In this document: piece by piece, positions 4,722 through 63,060 of the stretch
Layout of the letters: the number at the start of each line of letters is the position of its first letter
Numbering within the stretch: the stretch's first letter is position 1
DNA from: Closterium sp. NIES-65
Taxonomy: Eukaryota; Streptophyta; Zygnematophyceae; Desmidiales; Closteriaceae
Direction of reading: 5' to 3'
DNA: 64,000 bases
NCBI GenBank assembly: GCA_948144175.1
Contig: CANXME010002187.1
Location: 175,001 to 239,000, forward strand
Program-made: the position numbers and the translations under genes
Notes under the pieces: model-generated
Database searches by the model: none
What the model was told of the DNA's origin: nothing
Seen by the model: the letters and a program-made list of their open reading frames with translations, nothing else

Positions 4722-4828
4722 CCAGTCACCACTGACCTGTGTTGGTCAGTCAATGAAATCACCTGATGCCAATTCGACCCAATCTGCCGTAACACGCAAC
4801 CCATTTCTATTCTTACATAATTCCTTAT

Positions 4829-18337: not shown

Positions 18338-18546
18338 CTTTACTTGTACTGTGACATATATATACCTGCTCCTGCTTGTCTAGTTTTATATATATGCCTG
18401 TACTCCTGCATGTGAACTGGCCTCTGGCCTTACTCTTGTGCTCGGACTGTGTGGTGACTTTGTGATCCACCCTGAGCTTGCTTTGCTTTGCTTTGCTTGA
18501 CTGGTCTTGTGACCCCTTGTTCTCCCCCACTTTGCCTATGGGGGTG

Positions 18547-18678
18547 TGTCAGATTATTATAGCTGATGCATGTTTGTAGGCTATAGTGGGGTAGCACATA
18601 TGGGGTACAGCTTTCTAGGGTTGTATTTGTACCCAACTATGACTTAGTCATTCTCATTCCTGTTCATTTATTCTCACA
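18547..18678 (+). repeat. 3' LTR of copia 12263-18678
   Basis: 132 bp, directly after the purine tract CTATGGGGGTG, matching the 5' LTR except at one site. Confidence 0.92.
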
Positions 18679-42600: not shown

Positions 42601-44219
42601 TACTGCTTGCTCCTGAGGGAGACCCGGATGCACTAGACATCCCGACTCCGCGCTCTTACGCGGAGGCCGTAGAGGGTCCCTACTCCTCTCAGTGGCAGGC
42701 AGCTATGGATGCAGAGATGGCTTCCTGGAAGTCCACAGGCACCTACATTGACGCAGTTCCCCCTCCTGGGGCGAACATCGTCAGTGGCATGTGGATCTTC
42801 AGGGTGAAGCGGCCGCCGGGCTCTCCACCTGTCTTCAAGGCGCGGTACGTTGCTCGTGGCTTCAGTCAGCGGCAGGGAGTTGACTACTTTCAGACCTTCT
42901 CTCCCACCCCGAAGATGACCACTCTTCGGGTGCTGCTGCACATAGCCGCTCAGCGCGACTACGAGCTTCACTCTCTCGACTTCAGCACTGCGTTCCTGCA
43001 GGGTAGCCTGCACGAGGAGATCTGGCTGCGCCGTCCACCTGGCTTCACTGGGACTTTTCTTCCTGGCACCCAGTGGAGCCTCCGACGGCCAGTCTACGGT
43101 CTCCGCCAGGCACCGCGTGAGTGGCACGACACACTGAGGACTACGCTTGCGGCTCTTGGGTTTGCTCCTTCTACTGCTGACCCGTCGCTGTTTCTGCGCA
43201 CCGACACTTCACTGCCGCCGTTCTACATCCTCGTGTACGTCGACGACTTGGTCTTTGCCACAGCGGACACTGCTGGACTCGCCTACGTGAAGTCCGAGCT
43301 GCAGAAGAGACACACGTGCACAGACCTGGGTGAACTGCGCAGCTACCTTGGCTTACAGATCACTCGGGACAGAGCACGCCGCACCATTACCTTGACTCAG
43401 TCACACATGGTGCAGCAGGTCCTTCAGCGCTTCGGCTTCACGTACTCCTCGCCTCAGGCCACTCCTCTGTCTACTCGTCACTCGCTCTCAGCTCTGCCTT
43501 CGGATGAGTCCGTAGAGTCGAGTGGCCCGTACCCAGAGCTTGTTGGCTGCCTCATGTATCTGATGACCTGCACACGACCTGACCTTGCATACCCTCTGAG
43601 CATTCTTGCACGCTATGTTGCTCCTGGGAGACACCGACCAGAGCACATGGCTGCAGCGAAGAGGGTATTGCGCTACCTGTGCAGTACGTCGGGCATGGGG
43701 CTAGTGCTTGGAGGGCGGAGTCCAGTGGTCCTTACAGGCCACGCTGACGCTTCTTGGGCTGACGACCAGGCTACGCAGCGGTCGTCACAGGGTTACACCT
43801 TCAGTCTTGGTTCTGGCTCTGTCTCGTGGCGGGCTACTCGTTCGTCTTCGGTTCTCAGCTCCAGTTGTGAGGCTGAGATCTACGCCGGGGCCATGGCTGC
43901 AAAGGAGCTTCGCTGGCTCACCTACCTGCTGACTGACCTTGGAGAGCCGCCTCGTTCTCCTCCAGTGTTGTACGTAGACAACAAGGCCATGCTGGCCTTG
44001 AGTCGAGAGCAGCGTCTGGAGCACAGAACGAAGCACATTGCTCTTCGTTACTTCCTTGCTCGTGAGCTACAGCAGCGTGGACAGTTGCGGCTTGCTTACG
44101 TGGCCTCTGAGGCCAACACTGCTGATGTGTTCACCAAGGCACTCGCGCCTTGTGACCATCAGCGCTTCTGCACCCAGCTGGGTCTTGTGCCTGTCTTGCC
44201 TCACTTGCTCTCCTCTTGA
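39684..44219 (+). CDS. Copia F polyprotein (protease, integrase, RT, RNase H)
   Basis: A 1511-residue retrotransposon frame. Protease FTLDSGASRSFF is near residue 62, GAG-pre-integrase LLWHHRLGHPSLPRL near 220, integrase LHMDVWGPAPV near 285 with LHSDRGGEFSS and PQQNGIAERR. A repeat linker of GGAEPGGA/AAEPGGA units carries LSPQELREWFARRW. RT follows with FKARYVARGF and YVDDLVF, then RNase H with HADASWADD, SCEAEIYAG and DNKAM. It looks whole over its length. It is close to the frame at 13535-18337 although the two elements have different LTRs, so the families are sisters. Confidence 0.92.
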   Translation: MYAVTISEEGDCYRCFPPDPSIGTAALGACEAAALGASASALSSAGETALSGTASPPSSLTFTLDSGASRSFFRDRTTLTPLGRPVAVSLSDPSGGPVLSHFSTVLPCPAAPSGTLSGLYLPSFSTNLVSGAGLQDTGVHQFTPASQRVTHCTDARTGRHLATFSRRPGSSLYTLTTTSPPVPASGQVAASGQVLAAASRSGPESAPCSCRLLSHETLLWHHRLGHPSLPRLRSMASRVLVSGLPQSLPPLPSGPGPSCVPCVEGRLRAAPHSSQFPPTEAPLQTLHMDVWGPAPVRGQGHERYFLLVVDNYSRYTTVLPLRSKGALTEVLIDWIREAPLPLRKSFGSDFPVLRLHSDRGGEFSSRLLRDYCRARGIRQTFTLPDSPQQNGIAERRIGMVMDVARTSMMHAAAPHFLWPFAVRYAAHQLNLHPRVSRPAMSPVLLWTGKVGDASAFRVWGSRAFVRDLSADKLSPRAAPCVFLGFPTDAPGWQFYHPSSRRVLSSQDVTFDESFPFYRLFPYRTPYLPPPPDFLVPVPPPVDPLPPQVPAPSGVSQVDAVDPVEVTGDSGAAAGAEPGGADSGGAVRGGAEPGGAATGGAEPGGAVPGAAELGGAGSGGAGSGAAEPGGAASGAAEPGGAESGAAEPGGAASGAAELGVSPAAASRREPLSPQELREWFARRWRRAAGAGASSTVEGAGAAGPGAAGPAGPSGAGAAEGVGAETTAVCPDGGSAAGAAGGPAAGGVGGAGAVAGGARAVPAAARPRPYFVPLLQQVLGLSPPVECPQPVQSQSLLEPSSPLPAPSPYTGPTGGLAQRREPASRPASPVRAARASGRGSRQRPPPVPGTHRMSLRPSTAPLRAPLPSPPESSLPALADPESDSLRAASPTVTRLLATVVTDPSFESTAASALVAELVDFAARCRLDYAASLVAESACVCPPSVGGECALGTDVLEYRQEELECLAAASPHLASVLLAPEGDPDALDIPTPRSYAEAVEGPYSSQWQAAMDAEMASWKSTGTYIDAVPPPGANIVSGMWIFRVKRPPGSPPVFKARYVARGFSQRQGVDYFQTFSPTPKMTTLRVLLHIAAQRDYELHSLDFSTAFLQGSLHEEIWLRRPPGFTGTFLPGTQWSLRRPVYGLRQAPREWHDTLRTTLAALGFAPSTADPSLFLRTDTSLPPFYILVYVDDLVFATADTAGLAYVKSELQKRHTCTDLGELRSYLGLQITRDRARRTITLTQSHMVQQVLQRFGFTYSSPQATPLSTRHSLSALPSDESVESSGPYPELVGCLMYLMTCTRPDLAYPLSILARYVAPGRHRPEHMAAAKRVLRYLCSTSGMGLVLGGRSPVVLTGHADASWADDQATQRSSQGYTFSLGSGSVSWRATRSSSVLSSSCEAEIYAGAMAAKELRWLTYLLTDLGEPPRSPPVLYVDNKAMLALSREQRLEHRTKHIALRYFLARELQQRGQLRLAYVASEANTADVFTKALAPCDHQRFCTQLGLVPVLPHLLSS

Positions 44220-44422
44220 CTTTACTTGTATATATATACCTCCTCTTGCTTGTCTAGTTTTATATATATATGTCTGTACTCCTGCATGTGAACTGGCCTC
44301 TGGCCCTGCTCTTGTGCTCGGACTGTGTGGTGACTTTGTGATCCACCCTGAGCTTGCTTTGTTTTACTTTGCTTGACTGGTCTTGTGACCCCTTGTTCTC
44401 CCCCACTTTGCCTATGGGGGTG

Positions 44423-44551
44423 TGTCAGATATATATGACATAGCTGTTGTAGGCTATAGTGGGGTAGCACATATGGGGTACAGCTCTCTAGGGTTTGTAT
44501 TTGTACCAAACGTTCACTTAGTCATTTCATTCCTGTTCTACTATTCTCACA
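44423..44551 (+). repeat. 3' LTR of copia F
   Basis: 129 bp, identical to the 5' LTR, preceded by CTATGGGGGTG and followed by ATTAT. Confidence 0.93.
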
Positions 44552-48766: not shown

Positions 48767-48775
48767 CATGAATGG

Positions 48776-49308
48776 GAGAGAATTGCTCCAAGCCCATGTT
48801 TGGAGATTCAGCGTTGCCCACGCGGCCACCAGTTTCTCGCGTGGCTCTCGAATTCAGTGACAATTGCTCGAGTGGCCTTGCCAGGGGATTTCCACTGGCT
48901 TTTTTTTTAAACCGGCACATTGCCCTACACGGGTTTCTATCCTCGAAACTTATGTACTGGTGATTGCGCGATCTTCATTATCCAAAACTTATGTTCATGA
49001 CCCTATATGACCGCGCCTGATTGGACGCGCATTTCAAAAAAAGGCACCGCGCATATAATTGACCAATCATGCGCGGTCATATAGGGCCACGAACATAAAT
49101 TTCGGATATAAAAAGATCGCGCAATAGCCAATACAAAAGCTTCGATGATAAATACACATGAAGGGTAATGTGCCTTCTAAAAAAGACGTTGAGAATCCCC
49201 TGGCGAGGCCACTCGAGCAATTATCACTGAATTTGAGAACTACTCGAGCGAATGGTAGCCACGTGTGCAAAAACGAATCTTTAAACAAGGGTTTTGAGCA
49301 AATCTCTC
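48776..49308. mobile_element. Non-autonomous Mutator-like (MULE) element, copy 2
   Basis: It starts GAGAGAATTGCTCC and ends with the inverted match AAATCTCTC. The 9-bp duplication CATGAATGG lies at 48767-48775 and 49309-49317. The two arms are about 250 bp each and meet around an A-rich centre near 49040, so nearly the whole 533 bp can fold on itself. It is the same family as 3534-4721 but without the hAT insert. No transposase. It lies about 560 bp upstream of the bHLH start codon. Confidence 0.88.
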
Positions 49309-49317
49309 CATGAATGG

Positions 49318-49871
49318 TATGGATGGACGGGAAGAGAAGGCAAGTGACATGTACGTCTCCCGAAGCCGAGGCTGAGGCCGAGCCCGACCACACACACACG
49401 AATGTCCTGTGGCATGCCAGTGGGAAGGAAGGACGTCGCACCTCGATTCGAGTCGAGCAAAACGACAGACGGACGTTTCTTGCCTTGGTTTGCGGTGTGC
49501 GTGTGAGCCAATCGGAGGAGTTCCTCGAGTCCCACATGTGCCATGGTCCCTCCATCAAGTGGCTAACGACAAAGACGGTTCAGTTGAGTTGAGTTTATCA
49601 CTGCCTGGCTGACTGCCTGCCTGCCTGCTTGCCTGCCTGCCCTCACCTATTCGACCCACCCACCCCATGCAATGCAATCCCCTCTTCCCATCCCAAACCA
49701 AACGCTTCTTCATGAGTCAAGATTCCACAGCAATATTCCTTAGTCGAATTCCAGAGTGCTCCAGCTCGAGAGTGTTGGTTTATTTTGGGAGTCACTTGAG
49801 TGACCAGAAACCTGCTTGGGCAATCGTATCGAGTGCGGCTGCTTTTGACGACCAACCTGGTCAATAGTGTG
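49318..49871 (+). promoter_or_regulatory. Upstream region of the bHLH gene
   Basis: This 550-bp stretch between the MULE and the bHLH start codon must hold the core promoter and 5' leader. A CCAAT box is at 49508-49512, and a (CCTG)n-type pyrimidine-rich run at about 49601-49645. No clear TATA box was identified. The MULE insertion sets the distal boundary. Confidence 0.4.
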
Positions 49872-51405
49872 ATGGCTGGAAGGCCGTTATCTCCGTTTCT
49901 CGCGATGAACGACGCGCAGCAGCCTGCTAATCCCGCGGCAGTTGTCGTCGCCGCTAACCATCACGGCGGATCTCTTTCGACGATTCAGCAGCAAGCGTTG
50001 ACGTCCGCGCTTATCCAGCACATGCAACAACAGCAACTACAGCAGCAGCAGCAGCAGCTTCTGCTTCAGCTTCAGCTGCAGCAGCAAACTCATCCGCCGC
50101 CACAACTTGCGGGATTTGAAGACCCTCAGCAAGTCGGTGTCTCGCTACAGCTCTTCCCTTCCGCGCCGCCCGCATGTCCCGGGAACGACGCGGAACTCCC
50201 TCGCGGCGGAGCTTCGGCGCGCGCCACTGAGCCCGACCTGCGCCTCAGCGTAGGCTTGTCGCTGGGCGGCGGCGGGGCGGCGGCGGTTGAAGTCGGCGCT
50301 AATAAGCCAGCGAAGCGGAAGAGAGCAGATGAGGTGCGATTCTTATATTGCAAAATCACTCGAGCTATGGTTCGTGTTTGAAGCGTCCGTATCGTCGCTT
50401 ATTCGAGTCCTTCGTCTTCAGGCGTTTTCAACTGTTTTCAAGTGTCGTCAGATGTTCTGTCTCGAACCTCTTAAGAGGTTTTGCGATGTCATCCTGTGTC
50501 GATCGACGCGCTCTTCTCAATTCGACACCTCCCCTCCCGTTCGCGTCGCCGCATGCAGCTCCGTCTGATCTTGTCCCTTTGGCTGTCTTTTTAACCCTGC
50601 ACGTGCAGCTTCCTCGCGCGCGAACTCCCGCGAGTTCGGGGGAGAACAGCAATCTAGACACCGCGGCCCCGCCTCCGCCCCCCGCCGCGCCGCGCCCCGT
50701 CTTCGCCTTTCCCCCTGGTGGCGCTGCTTCTGCCTCCCCGCATTGGTTGGCGACCGTCCCTCCCGGCAATACCGCGCACAAAACCGCGCCCCGTGCCCTC
50801 CAGTCCCCCCATCAAGCTGGTGGCGCAGCGCTACCCGCCACTCCGTCTCCGGACGACGTCCCAGGCGGGGGATGGATGGGCGCGGGGGATCGTCGCGTCC
50901 CGTCCGGCGCGGGTTCCCCTGGGGAGGGACGTGCTGGAGGGTTGAGCGGGCCTGGAAGCGCGGGGGGATCTGGAGGGGAGCAGGACGAGGGCTTGGACGC
51001 GCAGGAAGCGGGGGGGAAGTCGTCCCGGCCGCGGACTGTTGCAGAGAGGAAGAGACGAAATGGAATTAGGTAAGCTTTGTGGAGCTCACTCTGACCAGAG
51101 CAACATAATAAATCACTTGGCTTGTTGTTTGTTGCATACAGGAGTCTGCTTATTGTAAATTCATGATTCCTTATCGTCTCAAACCTGTCTCTTATTGGTG
51201 GTGCGTGTTTGGGTGAATGTGCAGCCTGAAGCTAGAACAGCTGAAGAGGGCCATACCCCAGTGTAACACACGGGTGACGACGGAAACCCTTCTTTGTGAG
51301 ACTTTGACTTATATCCAAGCACTCAAGGCTAAGGTTGAGGTGCTTCAAGCAGAAAAGGCTGAACTTCTTTCCCAAGCATTAGGAAGACAGGGGGAGGGCA
51401 ATTAA
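49872..51405 (+). CDS. bHLH transcription factor, three exons (predicted)
   Basis: Exons 49872-50333, 50609-51069 and 51225-51405 join in phase (introns GTGCGA...CAG and GTAAGC...CAG) to give 367 residues. Residues 1-154 hold a Gln-rich activator-like tract (about 50-75, QQQLQQQQQQLLLQLQ) and end KPAKRKRADE, a possible nuclear signal. Exon 2 is Pro/Gly/Ala-rich. The exon 2-3 joint creates the basic region and helix 1, RTVAERKRRNGIS then LKLEQLKRAIPQ; exon 3 adds the loop and helix 2 (TETLLCETLTYIQALKAKVE) and a short leucine-heptad tail. The basic region has E and R at the E-box-contacting positions but R where plant bHLHs often have H, so E-box binding is likely but not certain. Subfamily not assigned. 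A 128-bp stretch after the stop is followed by an 11.5-kb insertion, so its 3' UTR or polyadenylation may be changed. Confidence 0.82.
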
Positions 51406-51528
51406 AGATCTATAACGGATGTAATTTTTCAGTGAAATATAGATGTCCGGTTCATCTAGTAAAGTATTTATATATTCACTGAGCTACTAAGAGCTCCTGA
51501 TCATAACACGTATCGTGGCATAAGATTG

Positions 51529-51533
51529 CACAT
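51529..51533. repeat. Target-site duplication CACAT, left copy
   Basis: CACAT precedes the LTR start TGTAAGG. The matching CACAT is at 63056-63060, after the LTR end GTAACA. The pair brackets the whole composite insertion. Confidence 0.9.
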
Positions 51534-51875
51534 TGTAAGGAAATTCCCTTTTCCTTACTTCGCGTCCCTGCCCAGCGCGTACGTCACTGTAGCACCTCAG
51601 TCAGCACCGTTACCACTCGCGACCATCGCATCATTCATCATCCCGCCTTTTTCGCACATTGCATCCCGACCTCACGGCTCGGCTGGTAACCCGCGCTCCG
51701 GGCCTACGCTTCGACACTTTCCCAACCTCAGTCTCAGGCTCGACGCGCGACAACCACAGTCCATTACCGTTACCACTATTGTTTCGCTATATAATCCTTC
51801 GCTCATGCCTTCGCTCATTGTACTTTTGCTTCGATAGTGCAATTCTCGTTCGTTCACTCAATTGCACACGTAACA
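51534..51875 (+). repeat. 5' LTR, plus gypsy copy
   Basis: It runs from TGTAAGGAAATTCCC to ACGTAACA, 342 bp, and carries TATATAAT near 51788 as a possible core promoter. Confidence 0.92.
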
Positions 51876-52056
51876 CTTGGTATTCAGAGCCTACGATCTC
51901 ATCTCGGACCGCATCCACACCTTCGCTTCCCACTATCTCAATTTTTGGGGGGGGTAGACGTCTCTCAGCGACACAGCACCGCCGCTCGAAGTGCTCTCTC
52001 GCAAGCACGCACGGCCACGACCGAGGCTCTCGCTGAGCTTGCCCGACACCCCCGCC

Positions 52057-53235
52057 ATGGCCGACCTCAATCTCGCCACGTTGACGCAGGAGCAACTCGA
52101 TCGTCTCGTGCGACAATTGGAGGATTCGGCGCTTGAAATCGCGACGCTCACGGCGGAACGTGACTCCGCCCGTCAACAGTCAGCGGTGAATGCTCCGACA
52201 ACATCCCACGCACCAACCAATGTCTCTGTACATTCGGAGGAGCCGATTATCATTTCATCCGGCACACCGACGCAACACAACAGCACGGGACAGCGCTCAG
52301 GCGCAGCCAGTGACGGCGCAGCCCAACCGATGCCCGGCATGGGAGGGAACAGGAGCACGCTAAGCCCACGGGAGCCCCGAGAAGCCCGTCGGCACGTGGA
52401 GTTTGCGACGACAAGTGGTGAAAACGCCATGATGGCCCCAATGCCACTCAAGCCGCAACGCCCGCCCTGCTTCGACCCAAGCCAACGCGGCGGCCCGACA
52501 GTTCAATCATGGGTCTTCACGATGAATGTGTTTTTCGACGCCAACTACGTCGAGTCGGACGCCGCCAAGATTCGGTATGCGGTTTCACTACTCAGGGGCC
52601 CCGCCATGGACTGGTGGCGAGTCATCGTGACGTCGCCACGCGCCTACGAGCCACCGCCGCACGAGGAAGGGCCCTCGGGTCCAGCTGTCACCTGGAGTTC
52701 GTTCTGCGAAACAGCCCAATACAGCACGTGGGATGCGTGGTGCGCAGGGCTTCGGGCGCGTTTTGAGCCGATCGCGGCTTCGATTTCGGCGCGTCAGAAA
52801 CTGCGCACTTGGCGCCAGCTCGGGTCGGTTCAAGACTACACCAGCGGTTTTCTCGCACTTTGCGAACAGGTCGGCTACATGCACGAGGCGGAGCGGGTGG
52901 ACCGTTACGTCGGAGGGCTGAAGCCGGACATATCGCACGAGATAATGCTACGCGGGCTATCGAATTTCAACGAAATCCTCGCGCTCGCCGAGAAAATCGA
53001 TATCCTACGCCGACCGAGACCGGGGTCCTATTTCGGACATCGCCCTCGGGGACCGATCGAGCACGCCACTGTACATGCCGTCGCAACGAATGCAGCTGCC
53101 ACGCCATTTAGAGGGCGCTGCTTTGCTTGCAACCGGCCGGGCCATCGCAAGAGCGAATGTCCAGAGGAGCTGAGGCGTCGAGGAGCAGAGCAGGGGAAGG
53201 AGTCTCAGAGGCAGGGAAACGCCAGCAGTCAGTAG
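52057..53235 (+). CDS. Gypsy gag, plus copy
   Basis: A 392-residue gag from MADLNLATLTQEQLDRL. A short coiled-coil-like N-terminus is followed by a low-complexity stretch, then the retrotransposon gag domain (PTVQSWVFTMNVFFDANY; IRYAVSLLRGPAMDWWR; YTSGFLALCEQVGYM), and ends in a zinc knuckle CFACNRPGHRKSEC (about residues 356-369). By family it forms the particle and binds element RNA. The ATG at 52057 is preferred over the in-frame one at 51991 because the remnant at 5339 starts at the equivalent place. Confidence 0.9.
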   Translation: MADLNLATLTQEQLDRLVRQLEDSALEIATLTAERDSARQQSAVNAPTTSHAPTNVSVHSEEPIIISSGTPTQHNSTGQRSGAASDGAAQPMPGMGGNRSTLSPREPREARRHVEFATTSGENAMMAPMPLKPQRPPCFDPSQRGGPTVQSWVFTMNVFFDANYVESDAAKIRYAVSLLRGPAMDWWRVIVTSPRAYEPPPHEEGPSGPAVTWSSFCETAQYSTWDAWCAGLRARFEPIAASISARQKLRTWRQLGSVQDYTSGFLALCEQVGYMHEAERVDRYVGGLKPDISHEIMLRGLSNFNEILALAEKIDILRRPRPGSYFGHRPRGPIEHATVHAVATNAAATPFRGRCFACNRPGHRKSECPEELRRRGAEQGKESQRQGNASSQ

Positions 53236-56200
53236 AAGTTGGGCCAACTACTGACGAGACTGCCTGCTCGCCCAACCACACCGACCCTCACCGAGTCACA
53301 GTACCGATTCACGCCATCGATCGGGCTCGGATGAATAAGGAGGGTACAGCGACGGATTGCCCGGTACTGATCTACGGGAAAATACAGGGAGCAGCAGTGA
53401 AAATCTTCATTGACGGAGGAGCAAGTCACAGCTTAGTTAATACTGCAACCGCACGGAAATTACAGTTAACACTTAACCGATGTTTACCTGAGATAGATGC
53501 ACGCTTAGTCGAAGGCACGCCATTGGCCATACGAGAAAAAGTGGAGCGAGTAAAAGTCCGCTGCGGGGGAAACTTCGGGTTTACACAGGAAATGCTCGCA
53601 ACGACGCTGGATGGGCACGACATTTTACTGGGACGTGATTGGCTGCGACGGTACAACCCACGGATCGACTGGACGACGGGGAGCTGCACAGTGCGAAGTA
53701 GCGGTAACTGGGTCGTCCTACCTCGCTGGCGGCCACCCGAATCTTCGACAGTCCAGGTCAACGCCATCGCGATGAAACGAGCTGTCGCTGCTGGAGCTGA
53801 CGTGTACGCAGTGGATATCGCAGTGGTAGAAAAAGACGAGCAGCAGAACGATTTTCAGAAACTGCTAGCAGCCGTACCGACCGAATTACAAGCACTACTG
53901 AAACGGTTCCCGGGGATATTTCCGGATGATTTACCACAGGGACTGCCACCTCAGCGAGTGCACGACCATAGGATCGAGCTAGAACCGGGGGCACAGCCAA
54001 CAGTACAGCGGCAATTTCGACTGACACAGCCCGAGCTCGACGAGTTAAGGAAGCAGTTAGATTACCTGTTAGAGAAGCAGTTTATTCGACCGAGCTCGTC
54101 ACCGTTCGCCGCACCCATACTGTTCACACCGAAAAAAGACGGAGGTTTTCGCATGTGCATCGACTACCGAGCGCTTAACCGAGTAACAATCAAATCGCGA
54201 TACCCCATCCCCCGCGCCGACGAACTCATTGACCAACTGCGAACAGCACGTGTCTTTTCGAAAATAGATTTACGGGGAGGTTACCATCAGATTCGGGTCG
54301 AACCATCGGACTGCGCAAAAACAGCATTTAGGACTAGGTACGGGTCATTCGAGTATACAGTAATGCCTTTCGGATTGACGAACGCGCCTGCGACTTTTCA
54401 GATGACCATGAACGAGGCGTTTAGACCACTTTTAGATAGATGCGTGATCGTTTACCTCGACGATATCCTCGTTTACAGTCGGGATAAGCAGCAACACTTA
54501 GCAGATCTCGAAGCAGTTTTTAAGGTTTTAGAGGAACATCGGCTGCTCACCAAGGGCTCCAAGTGCGAGTTTTTTAGGGATAGGCTAGAGTTTTTAGGTC
54601 ACGTCATTTCCGAGGCTGGGGTTGAGATCGACCCAAAGAAGCTGGATACGGTAAAAGCGTGGCGCCCCCCGACAAACATCACGGAACTGCAGAGTTTTTT
54701 AGGGTTTGTTAATTACGTTCGACGGTTCGTGCCCGACATGGCACGTTTAACAGCCCCACTAACTGATTTACTGCGTAAGGGGGTCGCTTTTACGTGGGGG
54801 GAGAAAGAGCATGCTGCCTTCTCTGCCCTAAAAAACGTCCTCTGTTCACCACCCGTTCTACGTATCGCTGATCCCCACCGCCCTTTCGAAGTGGTTACCG
54901 ACGCAAGTGACATCGCCATCGGAGCTGTACTGTTACAGGACTTCGGCAACGGCCTCCAACCCATCGCCTACGAATCACGCAAACTACATCCGCCTGAGCG
55001 AAATTACCCGATACACGACCGCGAAATGCTCGCGATCGTGCATGCATTCAAAGTTTGGCGCTGCTACTTGACTGGCGCAGACGTGACAGTACGGACAGAC
55101 CACCGATCTCTACAGTACCTCCGCGCACAGCCCCACCTCAACCCACGACAGATTCGATGGCTCGATTTCCTCGAGTCGAATTTTCACTATACGGTCACAT
55201 ACAAAAAAGGAGCATCGAATATCGCCGACGCACTGACCCGCCCCACTGCCCAGATCCACGCGATACTACTCGCCCAGACCAGCCCACTGCTTACCGGCCT
55301 ATTTACCCACGGATATCAAACAGACTCGTTCTTTACAGGAGGCAACTCACAGCAATTCGCAGCGGCAAAAGGAGTCTATTACGTAAAAACTGGAACCGAC
55401 CGCATCTGGGTACCGGGATACACGCTACTGCGGGAACTACTGTTACAGGAAGCACACGATGGAGTTACCTCGGGACATTTCGGGGTAGAAAAAACACGGC
55501 AGCAGCTGCAGCGGTACTACTACTGGCCAGAAATGTTGACCGATGTGCAACGACATGTGGCATCGTGTCCCACTTGCCAGCTCATGAAGTCAAGCAGGAA
55601 GCGACCAGCGGGGCAATTACAACCCATCCCGCCTCCAGAGCGTGCTTGGCAGCAGGTGACGATGGACTTCGTCACGGGGTTACCAGCTGGGGCGAGTGGG
55701 AATGACGCGATCCTGGTCGTCGTCGATCGACTAACGAAAATGGCTCATTTCGCAGCATGCAGGAAATCCATCACAGCCGAAGAAACCGCCCGACTATTCA
55801 TCTCCACCGTCGTACGACTGCACGGGATACCCGCGTCGATCATCAGCGACAGGGACACGAAATTTACCAGCAACTTCTGGCGGAACCTGTGGCAGCAGTT
55901 CGGCACACGCTTACAGTTCAGTTCATCCTATCACCCCGAAACCGACGGACAGACGGAACGAACAAATCAGACCATGGAGCAGCTGATTCGAGCCACGTGC
56001 GACGACCCGAATACGTGGGAACAGCAGCTGCCACTTATCGAGTTCGCATACAATAACGCACCATCAGCCACGACGCAACAGTCGCCGTTTTATCTAAATT
56101 ACGGACAGGACCCAACAGTACCCATGACACCGAATCCCGACAACCCCGTCCCACGAGCACAACAGTTCGCCGAGATTCTGCAGGCAGCACGGACCAGGGC

Positions 56201-56723
56201 AGCAGAAGCAATAAAAAAATCAAACATCATCGCTAAACGCAACGCCGATCGACATCGCCGACCCGTTACTTATCAGCCCGACGACCTCGTTTTACTCGAC
56301 ACTCAGAACCTTCGCCTGCCCATCACTCCAAAACTTCGCCCCCGATATTGTGGGCCATTTCGCATCAGCCACATGATCACACCAGTTACCGCCCACCTCC
56401 TCCTCCCCGCTGACTGGTACGTCAGCCCGTCATTCCACGTCAGCCTACTTCGCCCTTACATCCCATCCACGAGCCAACTGCCACGACATCGCCCAGCCAG
56501 CATGACACGTCCCCCAACCGAACCACTCATCACCCCTGACAAAATCCTCAGCCACCGCGTCCGCGACCCTCGGGGAGCCCGAAGGATCGAGTTCCTAATT
56601 CGCTGGAAGGACCGAACGGCCACAGAAGACAACTGGGTCCCCATGGATAAAATTGAGAACCACCCTGTCTTCACCGAGTATCTGCGAAGCCGAAATTTCC
56701 GCGACGTCCATGCGCTCTCGTAA
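53127..56723 (+). CDS. Gypsy pol, plus copy
   Basis: A 1198-residue frame. Aspartic protease IFIDGGASHSLVN is near residue 93; RT has CIDYRALN (about 345) and YLDDILVYS (about 443); RNase H has FEVVTDASDIAIGAVLLQ (about 586) and the HxxxH...CPTCQ zinc region of integrase follows (about 780-820). The integrase core shows MDFVTGLP, SDRDTKF and SSYHPETDGQTERTNQ (about 843-950). A chromodomain closes the protein (IEFLIRWKDRTATEDNWVP, about 1152-1171), which in this family steers integration to modified chromatin. The upstream part overlaps gag in another frame. Confidence 0.92.
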   Translation: MQPAGPSQERMSRGAEASRSRAGEGVSEAGKRQQSVEVGPTTDETACSPNHTDPHRVTVPIHAIDRARMNKEGTATDCPVLIYGKIQGAAVKIFIDGGASHSLVNTATARKLQLTLNRCLPEIDARLVEGTPLAIREKVERVKVRCGGNFGFTQEMLATTLDGHDILLGRDWLRRYNPRIDWTTGSCTVRSSGNWVVLPRWRPPESSTVQVNAIAMKRAVAAGADVYAVDIAVVEKDEQQNDFQKLLAAVPTELQALLKRFPGIFPDDLPQGLPPQRVHDHRIELEPGAQPTVQRQFRLTQPELDELRKQLDYLLEKQFIRPSSSPFAAPILFTPKKDGGFRMCIDYRALNRVTIKSRYPIPRADELIDQLRTARVFSKIDLRGGYHQIRVEPSDCAKTAFRTRYGSFEYTVMPFGLTNAPATFQMTMNEAFRPLLDRCVIVYLDDILVYSRDKQQHLADLEAVFKVLEEHRLLTKGSKCEFFRDRLEFLGHVISEAGVEIDPKKLDTVKAWRPPTNITELQSFLGFVNYVRRFVPDMARLTAPLTDLLRKGVAFTWGEKEHAAFSALKNVLCSPPVLRIADPHRPFEVVTDASDIAIGAVLLQDFGNGLQPIAYESRKLHPPERNYPIHDREMLAIVHAFKVWRCYLTGADVTVRTDHRSLQYLRAQPHLNPRQIRWLDFLESNFHYTVTYKKGASNIADALTRPTAQIHAILLAQTSPLLTGLFTHGYQTDSFFTGGNSQQFAAAKGVYYVKTGTDRIWVPGYTLLRELLLQEAHDGVTSGHFGVEKTRQQLQRYYYWPEMLTDVQRHVASCPTCQLMKSSRKRPAGQLQPIPPPERAWQQVTMDFVTGLPAGASGNDAILVVVDRLTKMAHFAACRKSITAEETARLFISTVVRLHGIPASIISDRDTKFTSNFWRNLWQQFGTRLQFSSSYHPETDGQTERTNQTMEQLIRATCDDPNTWEQQLPLIEFAYNNAPSATTQQSPFYLNYGQDPTVPMTPNPDNPVPRAQQFAEILQAARTRAAEAIKKSNIIAKRNADRHRRPVTYQPDDLVLLDTQNLRLPITPKLRPRYCGPFRISHMITPVTAHLLLPADWYVSPSFHVSLLRPYIPSTSQLPRHRPASMTRPPTEPLITPDKILSHRVRDPRGARRIEFLIRWKDRTATEDNWVPMDKIENHPVFTEYLRSRNFRDVHALS

Positions 56724-56750
56724 GAGGGGCCTCCTTGGGGAGGGGGGTAG

Positions 56751-57046
56751 TGTAAGGAAATTCCCTTTTCCTTACTTCGCGTCCCTGCCCAGCGCGTACG
56801 TCACTGTAGCACCTCAGTCAGCACCGTTACCACTCGCGACCATCGCATCATTCATCATCCCGCCTTTTTCGCACATCGCATCCCGACCTCACGGCTCGGC
56901 TGGTAACCCGCGCTCCGGGCCTACGCTTCGACACTTTCCCAACCTCAGTCTCAGGCTCGACGCGCGACAACCACAGTCCATTACCGTTACCACTATTGTT
57001 TCGCTATATAATCCTTCGCTCATGCCTTCGCTCATTGTACTTTTGC
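56751..57046 (+). repeat. 3' LTR, plus gypsy copy (main part)
   Basis: 296 bp match the 5' LTR except one site. The final 27 bp of the LTR sit at 63029-63055, on the far side of the inverted copy. Confidence 0.9.
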
Positions 57047-57512
57047 AAAAGTACTGGACTGAAGCAAAAGTACAATGAGCGAAGGCATGAGCGAAGGATT
57101 ATATAGCTGAAGAGGGCCATACCCCAGTGTAACACACGGGTGACGACGGAAACCCTTCTTTGTGAGACTTTGACTTATATCCAAGCACTCAAGGCTAAGG
57201 TTGAGGTGCTTCAAGCAGAAAAGGCTGAACTTCTTTCCCAAGCATTAGGAAGACAGGGGGAGGGCAATTAAAGATCTATAACGGATGTAATTTTTCAGTG
57301 AAATATAGATGTCCGGTTCATCTAGTAAAGTATTTATATATTCACTGAGCTACTAAGAGCTCCTGATCATAACACGTATCGTGGCATAAGATTGCACATT
57401 GTAAGGAAATTCCCTTTTCCTTACTTCGCGTCCCTGCCCAGCGCGTACGTCACTGTAGCACCTCAGTGTAACACCTTATACTGGACTGATTATATAGCAA
57501 AAGTACTGGACT
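57047..57512. other. Scrambled junction block between the inverted gypsy copies
   Basis: In order: 14 bp of filler; an inverted 47-bp LTR piece (57061-57107, reverse complement of 51786-51832); a direct copy of host sequence 51239-51533 (57105-57399); the first 68 bp of the LTR again (57400-57467); and filler ending at the minus copy. TACTGGACTGA occurs three times in the filler (near 57051, 57479 and 57503). Short shared bases (AGC near 57105; CAGTGTAACAC near 57464) mark the joints, as in template-switch repair. Confidence 0.8.
57105..57399 (+). pseudogene. Copy of the bHLH last exon and 3' flank
   Basis: It repeats 51239-51533 without visible change: most of bHLH exon 3 from the codons for LKRAIPQ through the stop, the 3' flank, and the CACAT-LTR joint. 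It lacks exons 1 and 2 and the start of exon 3, so it cannot encode a bHLH domain by itself. Because it contains the host-LTR joint, it was copied from an allele that already had the gypsy insertion. Confidence 0.9.
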
Positions 57513-57811
57513 GAAGCAAAAGTACAATGAGCGAAGGCATGAGCGAAGGATTATATAGCGAAACAATAGTGGTAACGGTAATGGACTGTGGTTGTCGCGC
57601 GTCGAGCCTGGGACTGAGGTTGGGAAAGTGTCGAAGCGTAGGCCCGGAGCGCGGGTTACCAGCCGAGCCGTGAGGTCGGGATGCGATGTGCGAAAAAGGC
57701 GGGATGATGAATGATGCGATGGTCGCGAGTGGTAACGGTGCTGACTGAGGTGCTACAGTGACGTACGCGCTGGGCAGGGACGCGAAGTAAGGAAAAGGGA
57801 ATTTCCTTACA
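57513..57811 (-). repeat. 3' LTR, minus gypsy copy (main part)
   Basis: It carries the same C at LTR position 127 as the plus 3' LTR, and one further private difference. Confidence 0.9.
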
Positions 57812-57838
57812 CTACCCCCCTCCCCAAGGAGGCCCCTC

Positions 57839-60800
57839 TTACGAGAGCGCATGGACGTCGCGGAAATTTCGGCTTCGCAGATACTCAGTGAAGACAGGGT
57901 GGTTCTCAATTTTATCCATGGGGACCCAGTTGTCTTCTGTGGCCGTTCGGTCCTTCCAGCGAATTAGGAACTCGATCCTTCGGGCTCCCCGAGGGTCGCG
58001 GACGCGGTGGCTGAGGATTTTGTCAGGGGTGATGAGTGGTTCGGTTGGGGGACGTGTCATGCTGGCTGGGCGATGTCGTGGCAGTTGGCTCGTGGATGGG
58101 ATGTAAGGGCGAAGTAGGCTGACGTGGAATGACGGGCTGACGTACCAGTCAGCGGGGAGGAGGAGGTGGGCGGTAACTGGTGTGATCATGTGGCTGATGC
58201 GAAATGGCCCACAATATCGGGGGCGAAGTTTTGGAGTGATGGGCAGGCGAAGGTTCTGAGTGTCGAGTAAAACGAGGTCGTCGGGCTGATAAGTAACGGG
58301 TCGGCGATGTCGATCGGCGTTGCGTTTAGCGATGATGTTTGATTTTTTTATTGCTTCTGCTGCCCTGGTCCGTGCTGCCTGCAGAATCTCGGCGAACTGT
58401 TGTGCTCGTGGGACGGGGTTGTCGGGATTCGGTGTCATGGGTACTGTTGGGTCCTGTCCGTAATTTAGATAAAACGGCGACTGTTGCGTCGTGGCTGATG
58501 GTGCGTTATTGTATGCGAACTCGATAAGTGGCAGCTGCTGTTCCCACGTATTCGGGTCGTCGCACGTGGCTCGAATCAGCTGCTCCATGGTCTGATTTGT
58601 TCGTTCCGTCTGTCCGTCGGTTTCGGGGTGATAGGATGAACTGAACTGTAAGCGTGTGCCGAACTGCTGCCACAGGTTCCGCCAGAAGTTGCTGGTAAAT
58701 TTCGTGTCCCTGTCGCTGATGATCGACGCGGGTATCCCGTGCAGTCGTACGACGGTGGAGATGAATAGTCGGGCGGTTTCTTCGGCTGTGATGGATTTCC
58801 TGCATGCTGCGAAATGAGCCATTTTCGTTAGTCGATCGACGACGACCAGGATCGCGTCATTCCCACTCGCCCCAGCTGGTAACCCCGTGACGAAGTCCAT
58901 CGTCACCTGCTGCCAAGCACGCTCTGGAGGCGGGATGGGTTGTAATTGCCCCGCTGGTCGCTTCCTGCTTGACTTCATGAGCTGGCAAGTGGGACACGAT
59001 GCCACATGTCGTTGCACATCGGTCAACATTTCTGGCCAGTAGTAGTACCGCTGCAGCTGCTGCCGTGTTTTTTCTACCCCGAAATGTCCCGAGGTAACTC
59101 CATCGTGTGCTTCCTGTAACAGTAGTTCCCGCAGTAGCGTGTATCCCGGTACCCAGATGCGGTCGGTTCCAGTTTTTACGTAATAGACTCCTTTTGCCGC
59201 TGCGAATTGCTGTGAGTTGCCTCCTGTAAAGAACGAGTCTGTTTGATATCCGTGGGTAAATAGGCCGGTAAGCAGTGGGCTGGTCTGGGCGAGTAGTATC
59301 GCGTGGATCTGGGCAGTGGGGCGGGTCAGTGCGTCGGCGATATTCGATGCTCCTTTTTTGTATGTGACCGTATAGTGAAAATTCGACTCGAGGAAATCGA
59401 GCCATCGAATCTGTCGTGGGTTGAGGTGGGGCTGTGCGCGGAGGTACTGTAGAGATCGGTGGTCTGTCCGTACTGTCACGTCTGCGCCAGTCAAGTAGCA
59501 GCGCCAAACTTTGAATGCATGCACGATCGCGAGCATTTCGCGGTCGTGTATCGGGTAATTTCGCTCAGGCGGATGTAGTTTGCGTGATTCGTAGGCGATG
59601 GGTTGGAGGCCGTTGCCGAAGTCCTGTAACAGTACAGCTCCGATGGCGATGTCACTTGCGTCGGTAACCACTTCGAAAGGGCGGTGGGGATCAGCGATAC
59701 GTAGAACGGGTGGTGAACAGAGGACGTTTTTTAGGGCAGAGAAGGCAGCATGCTCTTTCTCCCCCCACGTAAAAGCGACCCCCTTACGCAGTAAATCAGT
59801 TAGTGGGGCTGTTAAACGTGCCATGTCGGGCACGAACCGTCGAACGTAATTAACAAACCCTAAAAAACTCTGCAGTTCCGTGATGTTTGTCGGGGGGCGC
59901 CACGCTTTTACCGTATCCAGCTTCTTTGGGTCGATCTCAACCCCAGCCTCGGAAATGACGTGACCTAAAAACTCTAGCCTATCCCTAAAAAACTCGCACT
60001 TGGAGCCCTTGGTGAGCAGCCGATGTTCCTCTAAAACCTTAAAAACTGCTTCGAGATCTGCTAAGTGTTGCTGCTTATCCCGACTGTAAACGAGGATATC
60101 GTCGAGGTAAACGATCACGCATCTATCTAAAAGTGGTCTAAACGCCTCGTTCATGGTCATCTGAAAAGTCGCAGGCGCGTTCGTCAATCCGAAAGGCATT
60201 ACTGTATACTCGAATGACCCGTACCTAGTCCTAAATGCTGTTTTTGCGCAGTCCGATGGTTCGACCCGAATCTGATGGTAACCTCCCCGTAAATCTATTT
60301 TCGAAAAGACACGTGCTGTTCGCAGTTGGTCAATGAGTTCGTCGGCGCGGGGGATGGGGTATCGCGATTTGATTGTTACTCGGTTAAGCGCTCGGTAGTC
60401 GATGCACATGCGAAAACCTCCGTCTTTTTTCGGTGTGAACAGTATGGGTGCGGCGAACGGTGACGAGCTCGGTCGAATAAACTGCTTCTCTAACAGGTAA
60501 TCTAACTGCTTCCTTAACTCGTCGAGCTCGGGCTGTGTCAGTCGAAATTGCCGCTGTACTGTTGGCTGTGCCCCCGGTTCTAGCTCGATCCTATGGTCGT
60601 GCACTCGCTGAGGTGGCAGTCCCTGTGGTAAATCATCCGGAAATATCCCCGGGAACCGTTTCAGTAGTGCTTGTAATTCGGTCGGTACGGCTGCTAGCAG
60701 TTTCTGAAAATCGTTCTGCTGCTCGTCTTTTTCTACCACTGCGATATCCACTGCGTACACGTCAGCTCCAGCAGCGACAGCTCGTTTCATCGCGATGGCG

Positions 60801-61435
60801 TTGACCTGGACTGTCGAAGATTCGGGTGGCCGCCAGCGAGGTAGGACGACCCAGTTACCGCTACTTCGCACTGTGCAGCTCCCCGTCGTCCAGTCGATCC
60901 GTGGGTTGTACCGTCGCAGCCAATCACGTCCCAGTAAAATGTCGTGCCCATCCAGCGTCGTTGCGAGCATTTCCTGTGTAAACCCGAAGTTTCCCCCGCA
61001 GCGGACTTTTACTCGCTCCACTTTTTCTCGTATGGCCAATGGCGTGTCTTCGACTAAGCGTGCATCTATCTCAGGTAAACATCGGTTAAGTGTTAACTGT
61101 AATTTCCGTGCGGTTGCAGTATTAACTAAGCTGTGACTTGCTCCTCCGTCAATGAAGATTTTCACTGCTGCTCCCTGTATTTTCCCGTAGATCAGTACCG
61201 GGCAATCCGTCGCTGTACCCTCCTTATTCATCCGAGCCCGATCGATGGCGTGAATCGGTACTGTGACTCGGTGAGGGTCGGTGTGGTTGGGCGAGCAGGC
61301 AGTCTCGTCAGTAGTTGGCCCAACTTCTACTGACTGCTGGCGTTTCCCTGCCTCTGAGACTCCTTCCCCTGCTCTGCTCCTCGACGCCTCAGCTCCTCTG
61401 GACATTCGCTCTTGCGATGGCCCGGCCGGTTGCAA
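57839..61435 (-). CDS. Gypsy pol, minus copy
   Basis: A 1198-residue frame with the same protease, RT, RNase H, integrase and chromodomain blocks as the plus copy (YLDDILVYS, SDRDTKF, IEFLIRWKDRT visible on the minus strand). One residue near position 128 differs from the plus copy. Such near identity over 3.6 kb means either a very recent duplication or one locus assembled twice. Confidence 0.92.
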   Translation of the reverse strand: MQPAGPSQERMSRGAEASRSRAGEGVSEAGKRQQSVEVGPTTDETACSPNHTDPHRVTVPIHAIDRARMNKEGTATDCPVLIYGKIQGAAVKIFIDGGASHSLVNTATARKLQLTLNRCLPEIDARLVEDTPLAIREKVERVKVRCGGNFGFTQEMLATTLDGHDILLGRDWLRRYNPRIDWTTGSCTVRSSGNWVVLPRWRPPESSTVQVNAIAMKRAVAAGADVYAVDIAVVEKDEQQNDFQKLLAAVPTELQALLKRFPGIFPDDLPQGLPPQRVHDHRIELEPGAQPTVQRQFRLTQPELDELRKQLDYLLEKQFIRPSSSPFAAPILFTPKKDGGFRMCIDYRALNRVTIKSRYPIPRADELIDQLRTARVFSKIDLRGGYHQIRVEPSDCAKTAFRTRYGSFEYTVMPFGLTNAPATFQMTMNEAFRPLLDRCVIVYLDDILVYSRDKQQHLADLEAVFKVLEEHRLLTKGSKCEFFRDRLEFLGHVISEAGVEIDPKKLDTVKAWRPPTNITELQSFLGFVNYVRRFVPDMARLTAPLTDLLRKGVAFTWGEKEHAAFSALKNVLCSPPVLRIADPHRPFEVVTDASDIAIGAVLLQDFGNGLQPIAYESRKLHPPERNYPIHDREMLAIVHAFKVWRCYLTGADVTVRTDHRSLQYLRAQPHLNPRQIRWLDFLESNFHYTVTYKKGASNIADALTRPTAQIHAILLAQTSPLLTGLFTHGYQTDSFFTGGNSQQFAAAKGVYYVKTGTDRIWVPGYTLLRELLLQEAHDGVTSGHFGVEKTRQQLQRYYYWPEMLTDVQRHVASCPTCQLMKSSRKRPAGQLQPIPPPERAWQQVTMDFVTGLPAGASGNDAILVVVDRLTKMAHFAACRKSITAEETARLFISTVVRLHGIPASIISDRDTKFTSNFWRNLWQQFGTRLQFSSSYHPETDGQTERTNQTMEQLIRATCDDPNTWEQQLPLIEFAYNNAPSATTQQSPFYLNYGQDPTVPMTPNPDNPVPRAQQFAEILQAARTRAAEAIKKSNIIAKRNADRHRRPVTYQPDDLVLLDTQNLRLPITPKLRPRYCGPFRISHMITPVTAHLLLPADWYVSPSFHVSLLRPYIPSTSQLPRHRPASMTRPPTEPLITPDKILSHRVRDPRGARRIEFLIRWKDRTATEDNWVPMDKIENHPVFTEYLRSRNFRDVHALS

Positions 61436-62505
61436 GCAAAGCAGCGCCCTCTAAATGGCGTGGCAGCTGCATTCGTTGCGACGGCATGTACAGTGGCGTG
61501 CTCGATCGGTCCCCGAGGGCGATGTCCGAAATAGGACCCCGGTCTCGGTCGGCGTAGGATATCGATTTTCTCGGCGAGCGCGAGGATTTCGTTGAAATTC
61601 GATAGCCCGCGTAGCATTATCTCGTGCGATATGTCCGGCTTCAGCCCTCCGACGTAACGGTCCACCCGCTCCGCCTCGTGCATGTAGCCGACCTGTTCGC
61701 AAAGTGCGAGAAAACCGCTGGTGTAGTCTTGAACCGACCCGAGCTGGCGCCAAGTGCGCAGTTTCTGACGCGCCGAAATCGAAGCCGCGATCGGCTCAAA
61801 ACGCGCCCGAAGCCCTGCGCACCACGCATCCCACGTGCTGTATTGGGCTGTTTCGCAGAACGAACTCCAGGTGACAGCTGGACCCGAGGGCCCTTCCTCG
61901 TGCGGCGGTGGCTCGTAGGCGCGTGGCGACGTCACGATGACTCGCCACCAGTCCATGGCGGGGCCCCTGAGTAGTGAAACCGCATACCGAATCTTGGCGG
62001 CGTCCGACTCGACGTAGTTGGCGTCGAAAAACACATTCATCGTGAAGACCCATGATTGAACTGTCGGGCCGCCGCGTTGGCTTGGGTCGAAGCAGGGCGG
62101 GCGTTGCGGCTTGAGTGGCATTGGGGCCATCATGGCGTTTTCACCACTTGTCGTCGCAAACTCCACGTGCCGACGGGCTTCTCGGGGCTCCCGTGGGCTT
62201 AGCGTGCTCCTGTTCCCTCCCATGCCGGGCATCGGTTGGGCTGCGCCGTCACTGGCTGCGCCTGAGCGCTGTCCCGTGCTGTTGTGTTGCGTCGGTGTGC
62301 CGGATGAAATGATAATCGGCTCCTCCGAATGTACAGAGACATTGGTTGGTGCGTGGGATGTTGTCGGAGCATTCACCGCTGACTGTTGACGGGCGGAGTC
62401 ACGTTCCGCCGTGAGCGTCGCGATTTCAAGCGCCGAATCCTCCAATTGTCGCACGAGACGATCGAGTTGCTCCTGCGTCAACGTGGCGAGATTGAGGTCG
62501 GCCAT
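61327..62505 (-). CDS. Gypsy gag, minus copy
   Basis: A 392-residue gag identical by eye to the plus copy, from MADLNLATLTQEQLDRL to the CFACNRPGHRKSEC zinc knuckle. It overlaps the start of pol in another frame, as in the plus copy. Confidence 0.9.
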   Translation of the reverse strand: MADLNLATLTQEQLDRLVRQLEDSALEIATLTAERDSARQQSAVNAPTTSHAPTNVSVHSEEPIIISSGTPTQHNSTGQRSGAASDGAAQPMPGMGGNRSTLSPREPREARRHVEFATTSGENAMMAPMPLKPQRPPCFDPSQRGGPTVQSWVFTMNVFFDANYVESDAAKIRYAVSLLRGPAMDWWRVIVTSPRAYEPPPHEEGPSGPAVTWSSFCETAQYSTWDAWCAGLRARFEPIAASISARQKLRTWRQLGSVQDYTSGFLALCEQVGYMHEAERVDRYVGGLKPDISHEIMLRGLSNFNEILALAEKIDILRRPRPGSYFGHRPRGPIEHATVHAVATNAAATPFRGRCFACNRPGHRKSECPEELRRRGAEQGKESQRQGNASSQ

Positions 62506-62686
62506 GGCGGGGGTGTCGGGCAAGCTCAGCGAGAGCCTCGGTCGTGGCCGTGCGTGCTTGCGAGAGAGCACTTCGAGCGGCGGTGCTGTGTCGCTGAGAG
62601 ACGTCTACCCCCCCCAAAAATTGAGATAGTGGGAAGCGAAGGTGTGGATGCGGTCCGAGATGAGATCGTAGGCTCTGAATACCAAG

Positions 62687-63028
62687 TGTTACGTGTGCAA
62701 TTGAGTGAACGAACGAGAATTGCACTATCGAAGCAAAAGTACAATGAGCGAAGGCATGAGCGAAGGATTATATAGCGAAACAATAGTGGTAACGGTAATG
62801 GACTGTGGTTGTCGCGCGTCGAGCCTGAGACTGAGGTTGGGAAAGTGTCGAAGCGTAGGCCCGGAGCGCGGGTTACCAGCCGAGCCGTGAGGTCGGGATG
62901 CAATGTGCGAAAAAGGCGGGATGATGAATGATGCGATGGTCGCGAGTGGTAACGGTGCTGACTGAGGTGCTACAGTGACGTACGCGCTGGGCAGGGACGC
63001 GAAGTAAGGAAAAGGGAATTTCCTTACA
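62687..63028 (-). repeat. 5' LTR, minus gypsy copy
   Basis: 342 bp, carrying the same T at LTR position 127 as the plus 5' LTR. The primer site complement GGCTCTGAATACCAA lies just inside, at 62671-62685. Confidence 0.92.
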
Positions 63029-63060
63029 TTCGTTCACTCAATTGCACACGTAACACACAT
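63029..63060 (+). repeat. Plus LTR tail and right-hand CACAT duplication
   Basis: 63029-63055 is the last 27 bp of the plus LTR (TTCGTTCACTCAATTGCACA and onward to GTAACA). 63056-63060 is CACAT, matching 51529-51533. This marks where host DNA resumes. Confidence 0.9.

Follow-up and report, generated by a model that had tools for sequence, protein, structure and literature searches.

A single Ty3/gypsy insertion in Closterium with two opposed copies and a junction seemingly patched from its own locus

Next to a bHLH-type gene of Closterium sp. NIES-65, a chromodomain Ty3/gypsy element has integrated once, 128 bp past the stop codon of the gene. Inside the inserted block lie two copies of the element, tail-to-tail, and the junction between them looks as if it had been broken and then patched with pieces of the same locus. 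Positions below refer to the window, by which we mean the whole stretch of 64,000 nucleotides that was analysed.

One target-site duplication around two copies

The block (51534-63055) is bounded by the ends of a 342-bp LTR (TG...CA) and by a 5-bp duplication, CACAT, whose two copies abut the LTR ends TGTA... (51534) and ...GTAACA (63055). Pairs of 5-mers drawn at random from the window's first 51 kb were identical in 136 of 100000 cases. The final 27 bp of the full LTR at 51534-51875 (51849-51875) recur exactly at the right end of the block, and between LTR positions 296 and 316 the block's 3' LTR is interrupted by 5982 bp. The proper outer LTR ends and CACAT together support the preliminary description in reading the pair as the mark of one insertion of the whole 11.5 kb. 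The features of the flanks and of the two copies are as follows.

51226..51405, +: last exon and stop codon of the upstream bHLH-type gene; open frame to the stop
51529..51533, no strand: left target-site duplication CACAT, abutting the LTR end
51534..51875, +: copy 1 5' LTR, 342 bp; TATATAA at LTR position 255, T at 127
51991..53235, +: copy 1 gag ORF with a Retrotrans_gag domain and a CCHC zinc knuckle
53112..56723, +: copy 1 pol frame, 1203 open codons; protease, RT, RNase H, integrase, chromodomain
56751..57046, +: copy 1 3' LTR, positions 1-296 (cut); C at 127
57513..57811, -: copy 2 3' LTR, bases 299-1; carries C at 127 and a change of its own at 201
57839..61450, -: copy 2 pol frame, 1203 open codons; Gly135Asp relative to copy 1
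61327..62571, -: copy 2 gag ORF
62730..63028, -: copy 2 5' LTR, bases 299-1 of the complete LTR, with its end precisely on LTR base 1; has T at 127
63029..63055, +: remaining 27 bp of the interrupted 3' LTR (positions 316-342), identical to 51849-51875
63056..63060, no strand: right target-site duplication CACAT, abutting the LTR end

Pfam matches in copy 1, from which the domain order was read, run from gag through protease-RT-RNase H-integrase-chromodomain, the order of the chromovirus branch of Ty3/gypsy, with a chromodomain match that barely passes (25.7 bits, cut-off 25.1). The TG...CA LTRs of 342 bp with their 5-bp duplication also agree with this branch. The frames of copy 2, judged by openness and by identity to copy 1, are as open as those of copy 1 and differ in one pol residue. 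After the 5' LTR, at the putative place of the primer-binding site, stands CTTGGTATTCAGAGC; no tRNA genes were found within the window. Two exons of the neighbouring gene, joined by hand at a splice joint placed by eye, give a match to Pfam HLH (PF00010) that clears its cut-off, with E 4.8e-8. A PDB search with the last exon gave no significant match, the best being Cdc42-interacting protein 4 (E 0.097), followed by plant MYC2 (E 0.47). Searches for relatives of the element have no bearing on the locus: the first 25 bases of the LTR had no matches in viral_contigs, and the RT stretch had no confirmed relative among 8 pattern matches in viral_contigs and one, 50% identical, among 109 in genome_contigs. 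The latter lies in the record of a gamma proteobacterium symbiont MAG of Bathyaustriella thionipta, and we suspect that it is DNA of the animal host.

The inverted arms (51534-57046 against 63028-57516) show 3 differences in 5513 aligned bp. The copies had been described as two nearly identical full elements facing opposite ways; identity and orientation stand, but the 3' LTR is incomplete in both, being cut at position 296 in copy 1 and at 299 in copy 2, with positions 316-342 left alone at the far right. At LTR position 127, as had also been noted correctly, the two 5' LTRs have T and the two 3' LTRs have C. This position is a single CpG site. A separate mutation of it in each 5' LTR is unlikely, given that the first 296 bases of the copy 1 5' LTR contain 27 CpG sites and that one of the three arm differences is a CpG change. 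Polarity can be assigned to two of the three arm differences, with the derived state in copy 2 each time: the G of copy 1 at 53515/61047 is also found in a 74% relative at 5.7-8.0 kb, and T at LTR position 201 is present in three of the four LTRs. That both should fall in copy 2 by chance has P = 0.25.

From the common T/C state the preliminary description argued that the parent was already aged, and it called a fold-back event here datable. The first conclusion does not follow, since a newborn copy acquires a clean difference between its 5' and 3' LTRs when its plus-strand strong-stop DNA contains an error. In the relevant passages of one study (PMC9278108) asymmetric LTRs arise by deletions and not by point differences, a result that supports this point only in kind. 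As to age, there are four changes in total, and were insertion and duplication equally old, the LTR-LTR comparison would keep at least one of them with P = 0.19. Since a newborn copy may already carry an LTR difference, and with this P under equal ages, the event is not datable, and the dating of the duplication was rejected. It should be noted more generally that a single 5'/3' LTR difference in common is no means of dating an element and does not alone rule out a second transposition.

The centre of the palindrome

The features between the arms, together with the source of the largest of them, are listed here.

51239..51601, +: origin of the 363-bp piece, comprising the final part of the last exon, 3' flank, CACAT and LTR 1-68; 0 mismatches
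57047..57063, no strand: 17-nt spacer of the putative first fold-back joint; found in the window here and at 57499-57515 only
57061..57107, -: inverted LTR positions 299 to 253, within the 63-bp repeat 57045-57107
57105..57467, +: direct copy of 51239-51601 (left flank, CACAT, LTR 1-68), 363/363 identical
57466..57498, no strand: filler of 11-nt local pieces; first and last 2 nt belong to the adjoining pieces

A stretch of 63 bp is present twice (57045-57107 = 57497-57559) and contains the 17-nt spacer each time; the last 3 nt of the spacer also match inverted LTR positions 299-297. The repetition of the spacer within the 63-bp repeat suggests that a near-perfect palindrome probably existed first and that its centre was rebuilt later, the joint having been double-stranded before the 452-bp insertion was made. 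Local-source 8-mers cover 29 of the 33 nt of the filler, leaving 4 nt without a source (57475-57478), and this coverage was reached by none of 5000 composition-keeping shuffles. Coverage with 10-mers was equalled by none of 2000 random 33-mers from positions 1-50000 of the window. Adjoining pieces overlap by microhomology, of 3 nt at 57105-57107, 4 nt at 57464-57467, and 2 nt at each of 57488-57489 and 57497-57498. The centre therefore has what is expected of a repair scar, that is, several short templated pieces with microhomology, beyond chance. The scar may be of the MMBIR or polymerase theta type of template switching. The copying itself is plain from the identities, and the centre was probably made by a polymerase switching templates at the locus.

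The preliminary description had proposed copying at the DNA level. For the centre this is established by the 363-bp copy, which spans the junction of flank and LTR; for the second copy the argument is still the state of LTR position 127. A template was also sought for TGGACTGA in the spacer, and the single 8-mer matches in copy 1 and in the right flank were taken as chance. The first joint on its own folds into a strong hairpin, as expected of any inverted repeat.

Origin of the second copy

We lean, tentatively, towards fold-back copying of the resident copy followed by revision of the centre. The 3' LTR would have broken or failed near position 296-316. Synthesis would then have turned back on itself and made a reversed copy of the element, starting at about LTR position 299 and running to base 1 of the 5' LTR, and this reversed end would have been joined to the leftover LTR end (316-342). 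The product would have been a near-perfect palindrome with 5.5-kb arms and a 17-nt spacer, placed before the present centre because of the repeated spacer. Later synthesis across the unstable centre would have switched templates, copying 363 bp of left flank and 5' LTR and then further 11-nt pieces, and re-entered at the start of the spacer, which would thereby have grown to the 469 nt that separate the arms today. The template strand would have ended at LTR base 1, like the unsealed 5' end of an integration intermediate.

The arms begin 3 bp apart, at LTR positions 296 and 299, a symmetry that fits what fold-back gives by itself. Arms starting at the same parental place with a short spacer are expected of it, and 296/299 with 17 nt is what the putative first joint has. 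To this extent the term fold-back, used from the start for this locus, agrees with the sequence; the outer joint fits it less well. A fold-back should close at an arbitrary place, by microhomology or end joining, whereas the end of the inverted copy falls precisely on LTR base 1 and is joined to LTR position 316 with no microhomology, although end joining is possible. A random template switch was thought unlikely here for that very reason, as it would stop exactly at LTR base 1 about once in thousands by our estimate. The exact end points instead to integrase joining or to run-off at the end of the element, and we conjecture that run-off at an unsealed end explains the stop. Copy 2 also has LTR positions 297-299, which are absent from the cut copy 1 strand, so that simple self-priming at 296 could not have supplied their template; the three matching bases may be due to chance, 1 in 64. 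Fold-back might, in a version that we consider distinctly improbable, have occurred on the unrepaired integration product (or on cDNA), with the plus strand ended at LTR base 1 and the flank copy made from the other, already joined strand. If true, the locus would record, strand by strand, the failed repair of a retrotransposon integration.

Ranked close behind fold-back copying, and nearly as likely, is a nested insertion homogenised by conversion between the arms, which we hold possible though somewhat doubtful. A near-identical second copy would have integrated in reverse in the U5 of the copy 1 3' LTR, at position 315/316; the tail-to-tail pair would have made a long palindrome that broke at its centre, with loss of both U5 ends and insertion of filler; and copy 2, position 127 included, would have been overwritten from copy 1 by gene conversion or gap repair. 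Integrase leaves just such a precise joint of LTR base 1 to 316 without microhomology, and palindromic junctions, in the passages of one report that treat them, are unstable and prone to secondary rearrangement (PMC10766186). A nested insertion should, however, have both inner ends at LTR termini and a 5-bp duplication of its own. The right end is exact, but the left stops at LTR 299, with the last 43 LTR bases of copy 2 missing and the predicted TTCGT not adjoining, a state that later loss could have produced. The conversion tract would also have to reach within 127 bp of the far end, a reverse landing at most 27 bp from an LTR end is unlikely, and nesting was least frequent in LTRs, along with the integrase domain, in the relevant part of one survey (PMC6911290). 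The statement that there was no second transposition is nevertheless unproven, given the exact end at LTR base 1 and given that arm-to-arm conversion could spread the T.

It is unlikely that an assembly or gap-filling error, or a chimera formed in vitro, added a reversed copy and a stray piece of flank to one ordinary insertion. Inverted repeats are difficult for assemblers, which join at overlaps, and whole-genome amplification yields inverted template-switch chimeras; the arms and the flank copy are indeed almost or fully identical (3/5513; 0/363). But the centre holds a chain of 11-nt local pieces and contains twice a 17-nt spacer that is absent from the rest of the window, and we know of no assembler that writes such chains or repeats a unique spacer. 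The three arm differences, one at a CpG, also speak against an error. A missed-adapter read would mirror the left flank, whereas the actual right flank differs and carries CACAT, and a simple fold-back read of this kind was rejected. The clear assembly fault that had been offered as the alternative is not demonstrated; the templated filler looks like the work of a polymerase, be it in the cell or in the amplification tube. Least probable, and very unlikely, is an origin before integration, in which cDNA would have attacked its own 3' LTR by its U3 end (autointegration) with the strands joined as a hairpin, and the opened 11-kb cDNA, made double-stranded, would have integrated with CACAT, the two arms being the two strands of one cDNA. 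This would account in one step for the joint of LTR base 1 to 316, for the T/C that both copies have, for their near-identity and for a single target duplication at proper outer LTR ends, and autointegration is, in the source passages, a known reaction (PMC2644782). Yet the second strand of an 11-kb hairpin would have to be completed before integration, no such hairpin product is described among the literature matches listed, and the flank-derived centre still demands a later event.

Comparison with known systems

Two facing copies in one target duplication call for inspection of the joints before two insertions are counted. Should reads confirm the locus, it would put in order the making and then the stabilising of a long palindrome, and nearly all sources of the copied DNA could be identified within 6 kb. 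The open-access literature matches listed include no case in which a full LTR element is folded back with its end at an LTR terminus. Foldback inversions from hairpin intermediates are described in passages on yeast (PMC10622511, PMC7467729), and are alike in that folded-back or hairpin-primed inverted copying is followed by secondary rearrangement; they involve dicentric or grossly rearranged chromosomes, whereas here an interstitial 5.5-kb copy ends at the terminus of an LTR.

Widening of palindrome spacers through later rearrangement has also been described, in a case where the arms of a near-perfect palindrome came to be spaced more widely through microhomology (PMC10766186). In the passages concerned the spacing went from 40-80 bp to 1.1-34.9 kb, as against 17 to 469 nt by added copied sequence here, and the palindrome in the present case, unlike that one, is a retrotransposon. 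The nested 'autoinsertions' in the part of the survey that describes them (PMC6911290) likewise have two Ty3/gypsy copies of the same family, nested, with one exact LTR terminus; here, in contrast, the inner copy is without a duplication pair, has lost its left end and has a 5'/3' LTR state in common with the outer copy. Short templated foldback and inverted insertions at breaks, as given in passages of another study (PMC11724301), resemble the present case in drawing their pieces from around the break, in microhomologies a few bases long (median 2 bp in that study) and in closure by end joining. The foldback inversions among them are mostly about 5-34 bp, whereas here 363 bp of flank-derived sequence and a 5.5-kb inverted copy are present.

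Ends and arms of the array

The Ty3/gypsy block at 51534-63055 contains two copies placed tail to tail, copy 1 forward and copy 2 inverted. It begins with an intact LTR:

51534-51875, forward strand: LTR of 342 bp, starting TGTA and ending GTAACA, then CTTGGTATTCAGAGC

CACAT directly adjoins 51534 on its left. LTR positions 1-296 are present again at 56751-57046, and positions 316-342 (27 bp) stand alone at 63029-63055, with CACAT directly after. Because LTR ends and CACAT are found on both sides, the outermost ends represent one ordinary integration, as the preliminary description had proposed (of 100,000 draws of two random 5-mers within the window's first 51 kb, 136 gave a match). The 3′ LTR of this integration is interrupted: 5982 bp (57047-63028) replace LTR positions 297-315.

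Copy 1 has the Pfam order gag, CCHC, protease, RT, RNase H, integrase and chromodomain (the last scoring 25.7 bits, its cut-off being 25.1), which is the Ty3/gypsy order. Read in reverse, the stretch 63028-57516 matches 51534-57046 except at three of 5513 aligned bp, and the reverse match of copy 2 to the 5′ LTR extends to LTR position 299 (57513). Open frames for gag (425 codons) and pol (1203 codons) are kept in both copies. At LTR position 127 both 5′ LTRs have T and both 3′ LTRs have C, so the earlier account of nearly identical, opposed copies sharing this difference holds. Its premise that the two LTRs of a new copy must be identical, from which DNA-level copying of an aged copy had been argued, is too strict. 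The 5′ LTR derives from plus-strand strong-stop DNA, which also serves as template for the minus strand of that LTR, while the plus strand of the 3′ LTR is newly copied from the minus strand. Owing to this different templating, a single error in strong-stop DNA would yield a 5′/3′ difference at birth. The rates in the LTR comparison (1/296) and the arm comparison (3/5513) do not differ significantly (P = 0.19).

Two of the three arm differences can be polarized. The first, at 53515/61047, is G in copy 1 and A in copy 2 (Gly135 to Asp); a decayed relative of the element at 5699-8011 (~74% identity) also has G there, in the protein context GTPLAI. At LTR position 201 the 3′ LTR of copy 2 alone differs, T being present in three of the four LTRs. 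The third is:

56675/57887: synonymous change, copy 1 reading CpG and copy 2 TpG, not polarizable

The derived state is in copy 2 both times, a polarity that agrees weakly with copy 2 as the product (P = 0.25).

The centre of the array

Between the arms, 57045-57107 and 57497-57559 are an identical 63 bp with exact limits (57044/57496 and 57108/57560 differ). The repeat comprises the final two bases of the LTR 1-296 segment, a 17-nt spacer, which in the window occurs only within these two repeats, and inverted LTR. Between them, 57105-57467 is identical to 51239-51601 across all 363 bp, carrying the end of the last exon of a bHLH-type gene with its 3′ flank, CACAT and LTR 1-68. The gene itself (49800-51405; HLH domain, E 4.8e-8) stops 128 bp short of the LTR. 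Overlaps at the joints of the 363-bp piece are 3 nt (AGC) at entry and 4 nt (CAGT) at exit. There follow the 11-nt pieces CAGTGTAACAC, TACTGGACTGA and GATTATATAGC, the first two separated by 4 nt of no source and the last sharing 2 nt with each neighbour. In this filler (57466-57498), local 8-mers cover 29 of 33 nt against a mean of 3.9 in shuffles preserving base composition only (reached in 0/5000), the first and last 2 nt belonging to neighbouring pieces and so matching by construction. At k = 10 coverage is 20/33, and none of 2000 random 33-mers from window positions 1-50000 is as high.

For a polymerase to write the spacer twice, a complementary strand with the spacer must pre-exist, so the simple joint (LTR 296, 17 nt, inverted LTR 299) was probably already double-stranded when the 452-bp insertion was made. 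A palindrome with this joint would thus have been made in a first step, and the 452 bp inserted into the already double-stranded joint in a second. With the simple joint first, the flank copy shows DNA-level copying at the locus for the second step only; the palindrome itself could have formed sooner, even pre-integration.

The outer joint and the origin of the inverted copy

At 63028/63029 copy 2 ends at LTR base 1 and LTR position 316 follows, with no base in common. ATGTG is expected from the inverted flank and TTCGT is present; TCTCG precedes LTR 316. Reaching the exact terminus by a random switch over 5.5 kb would be, by our estimate, a coincidence of order one in thousands; such a terminus is what integrase leaves in a nested insertion, or what run-off at a strand end gives.

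We tentatively favour fold-back copying as the source of copy 2, since the symmetry (296/299) and the shared T/C are its direct consequence, although it accounts for the exact terminus only where the template strand ended there. Insertion of a second copy into the first explains that terminus directly, TTCGT then being a duplication with a lost partner, and is only slightly less likely as an origin: it requires the second copy to have landed 27 bp from the LTR end, in the region least often nested in 12 plant genomes (PMC6911290, in excerpt), the left duplication to have been lost, and copy 2 to have been converted up to 127 bp short of its far end. An artefact of assembly or amplification is less likely but a real possibility, and a hairpin formed before integration highly improbable. 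These gradings are judgements, not calculated; the second step is common to all readings save the artefact.

Excerpts from the literature record foldback inversions via hairpin intermediates (PMC10622511, PMC7467729), short foldback insertions (PMC11724301) and secondary events that widen the centre of a palindrome (PMC10766186). Among the open-access matches listed, as excerpted, none describes a whole LTR element folded back with its end point at the LTR terminus.

Other repeats in the window

Several Ty1/copia-type elements and fragments lie in both orientations at 13500-44550, with long matching stretches of ~71-97% identity; one pair (16082-18678 and 41964-44551) has 96.5% identity. Local repeat arrays occur at 37347-38131, 24589-25084, 9241-9629 and 12503-12979, the latter two matching each other in reverse. 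An imperfect inverted repeat of 535 bp (48775-49309), parts of which recur at 4169-4737 with 81-89% identity, is possibly a foldback or MITE-like element.
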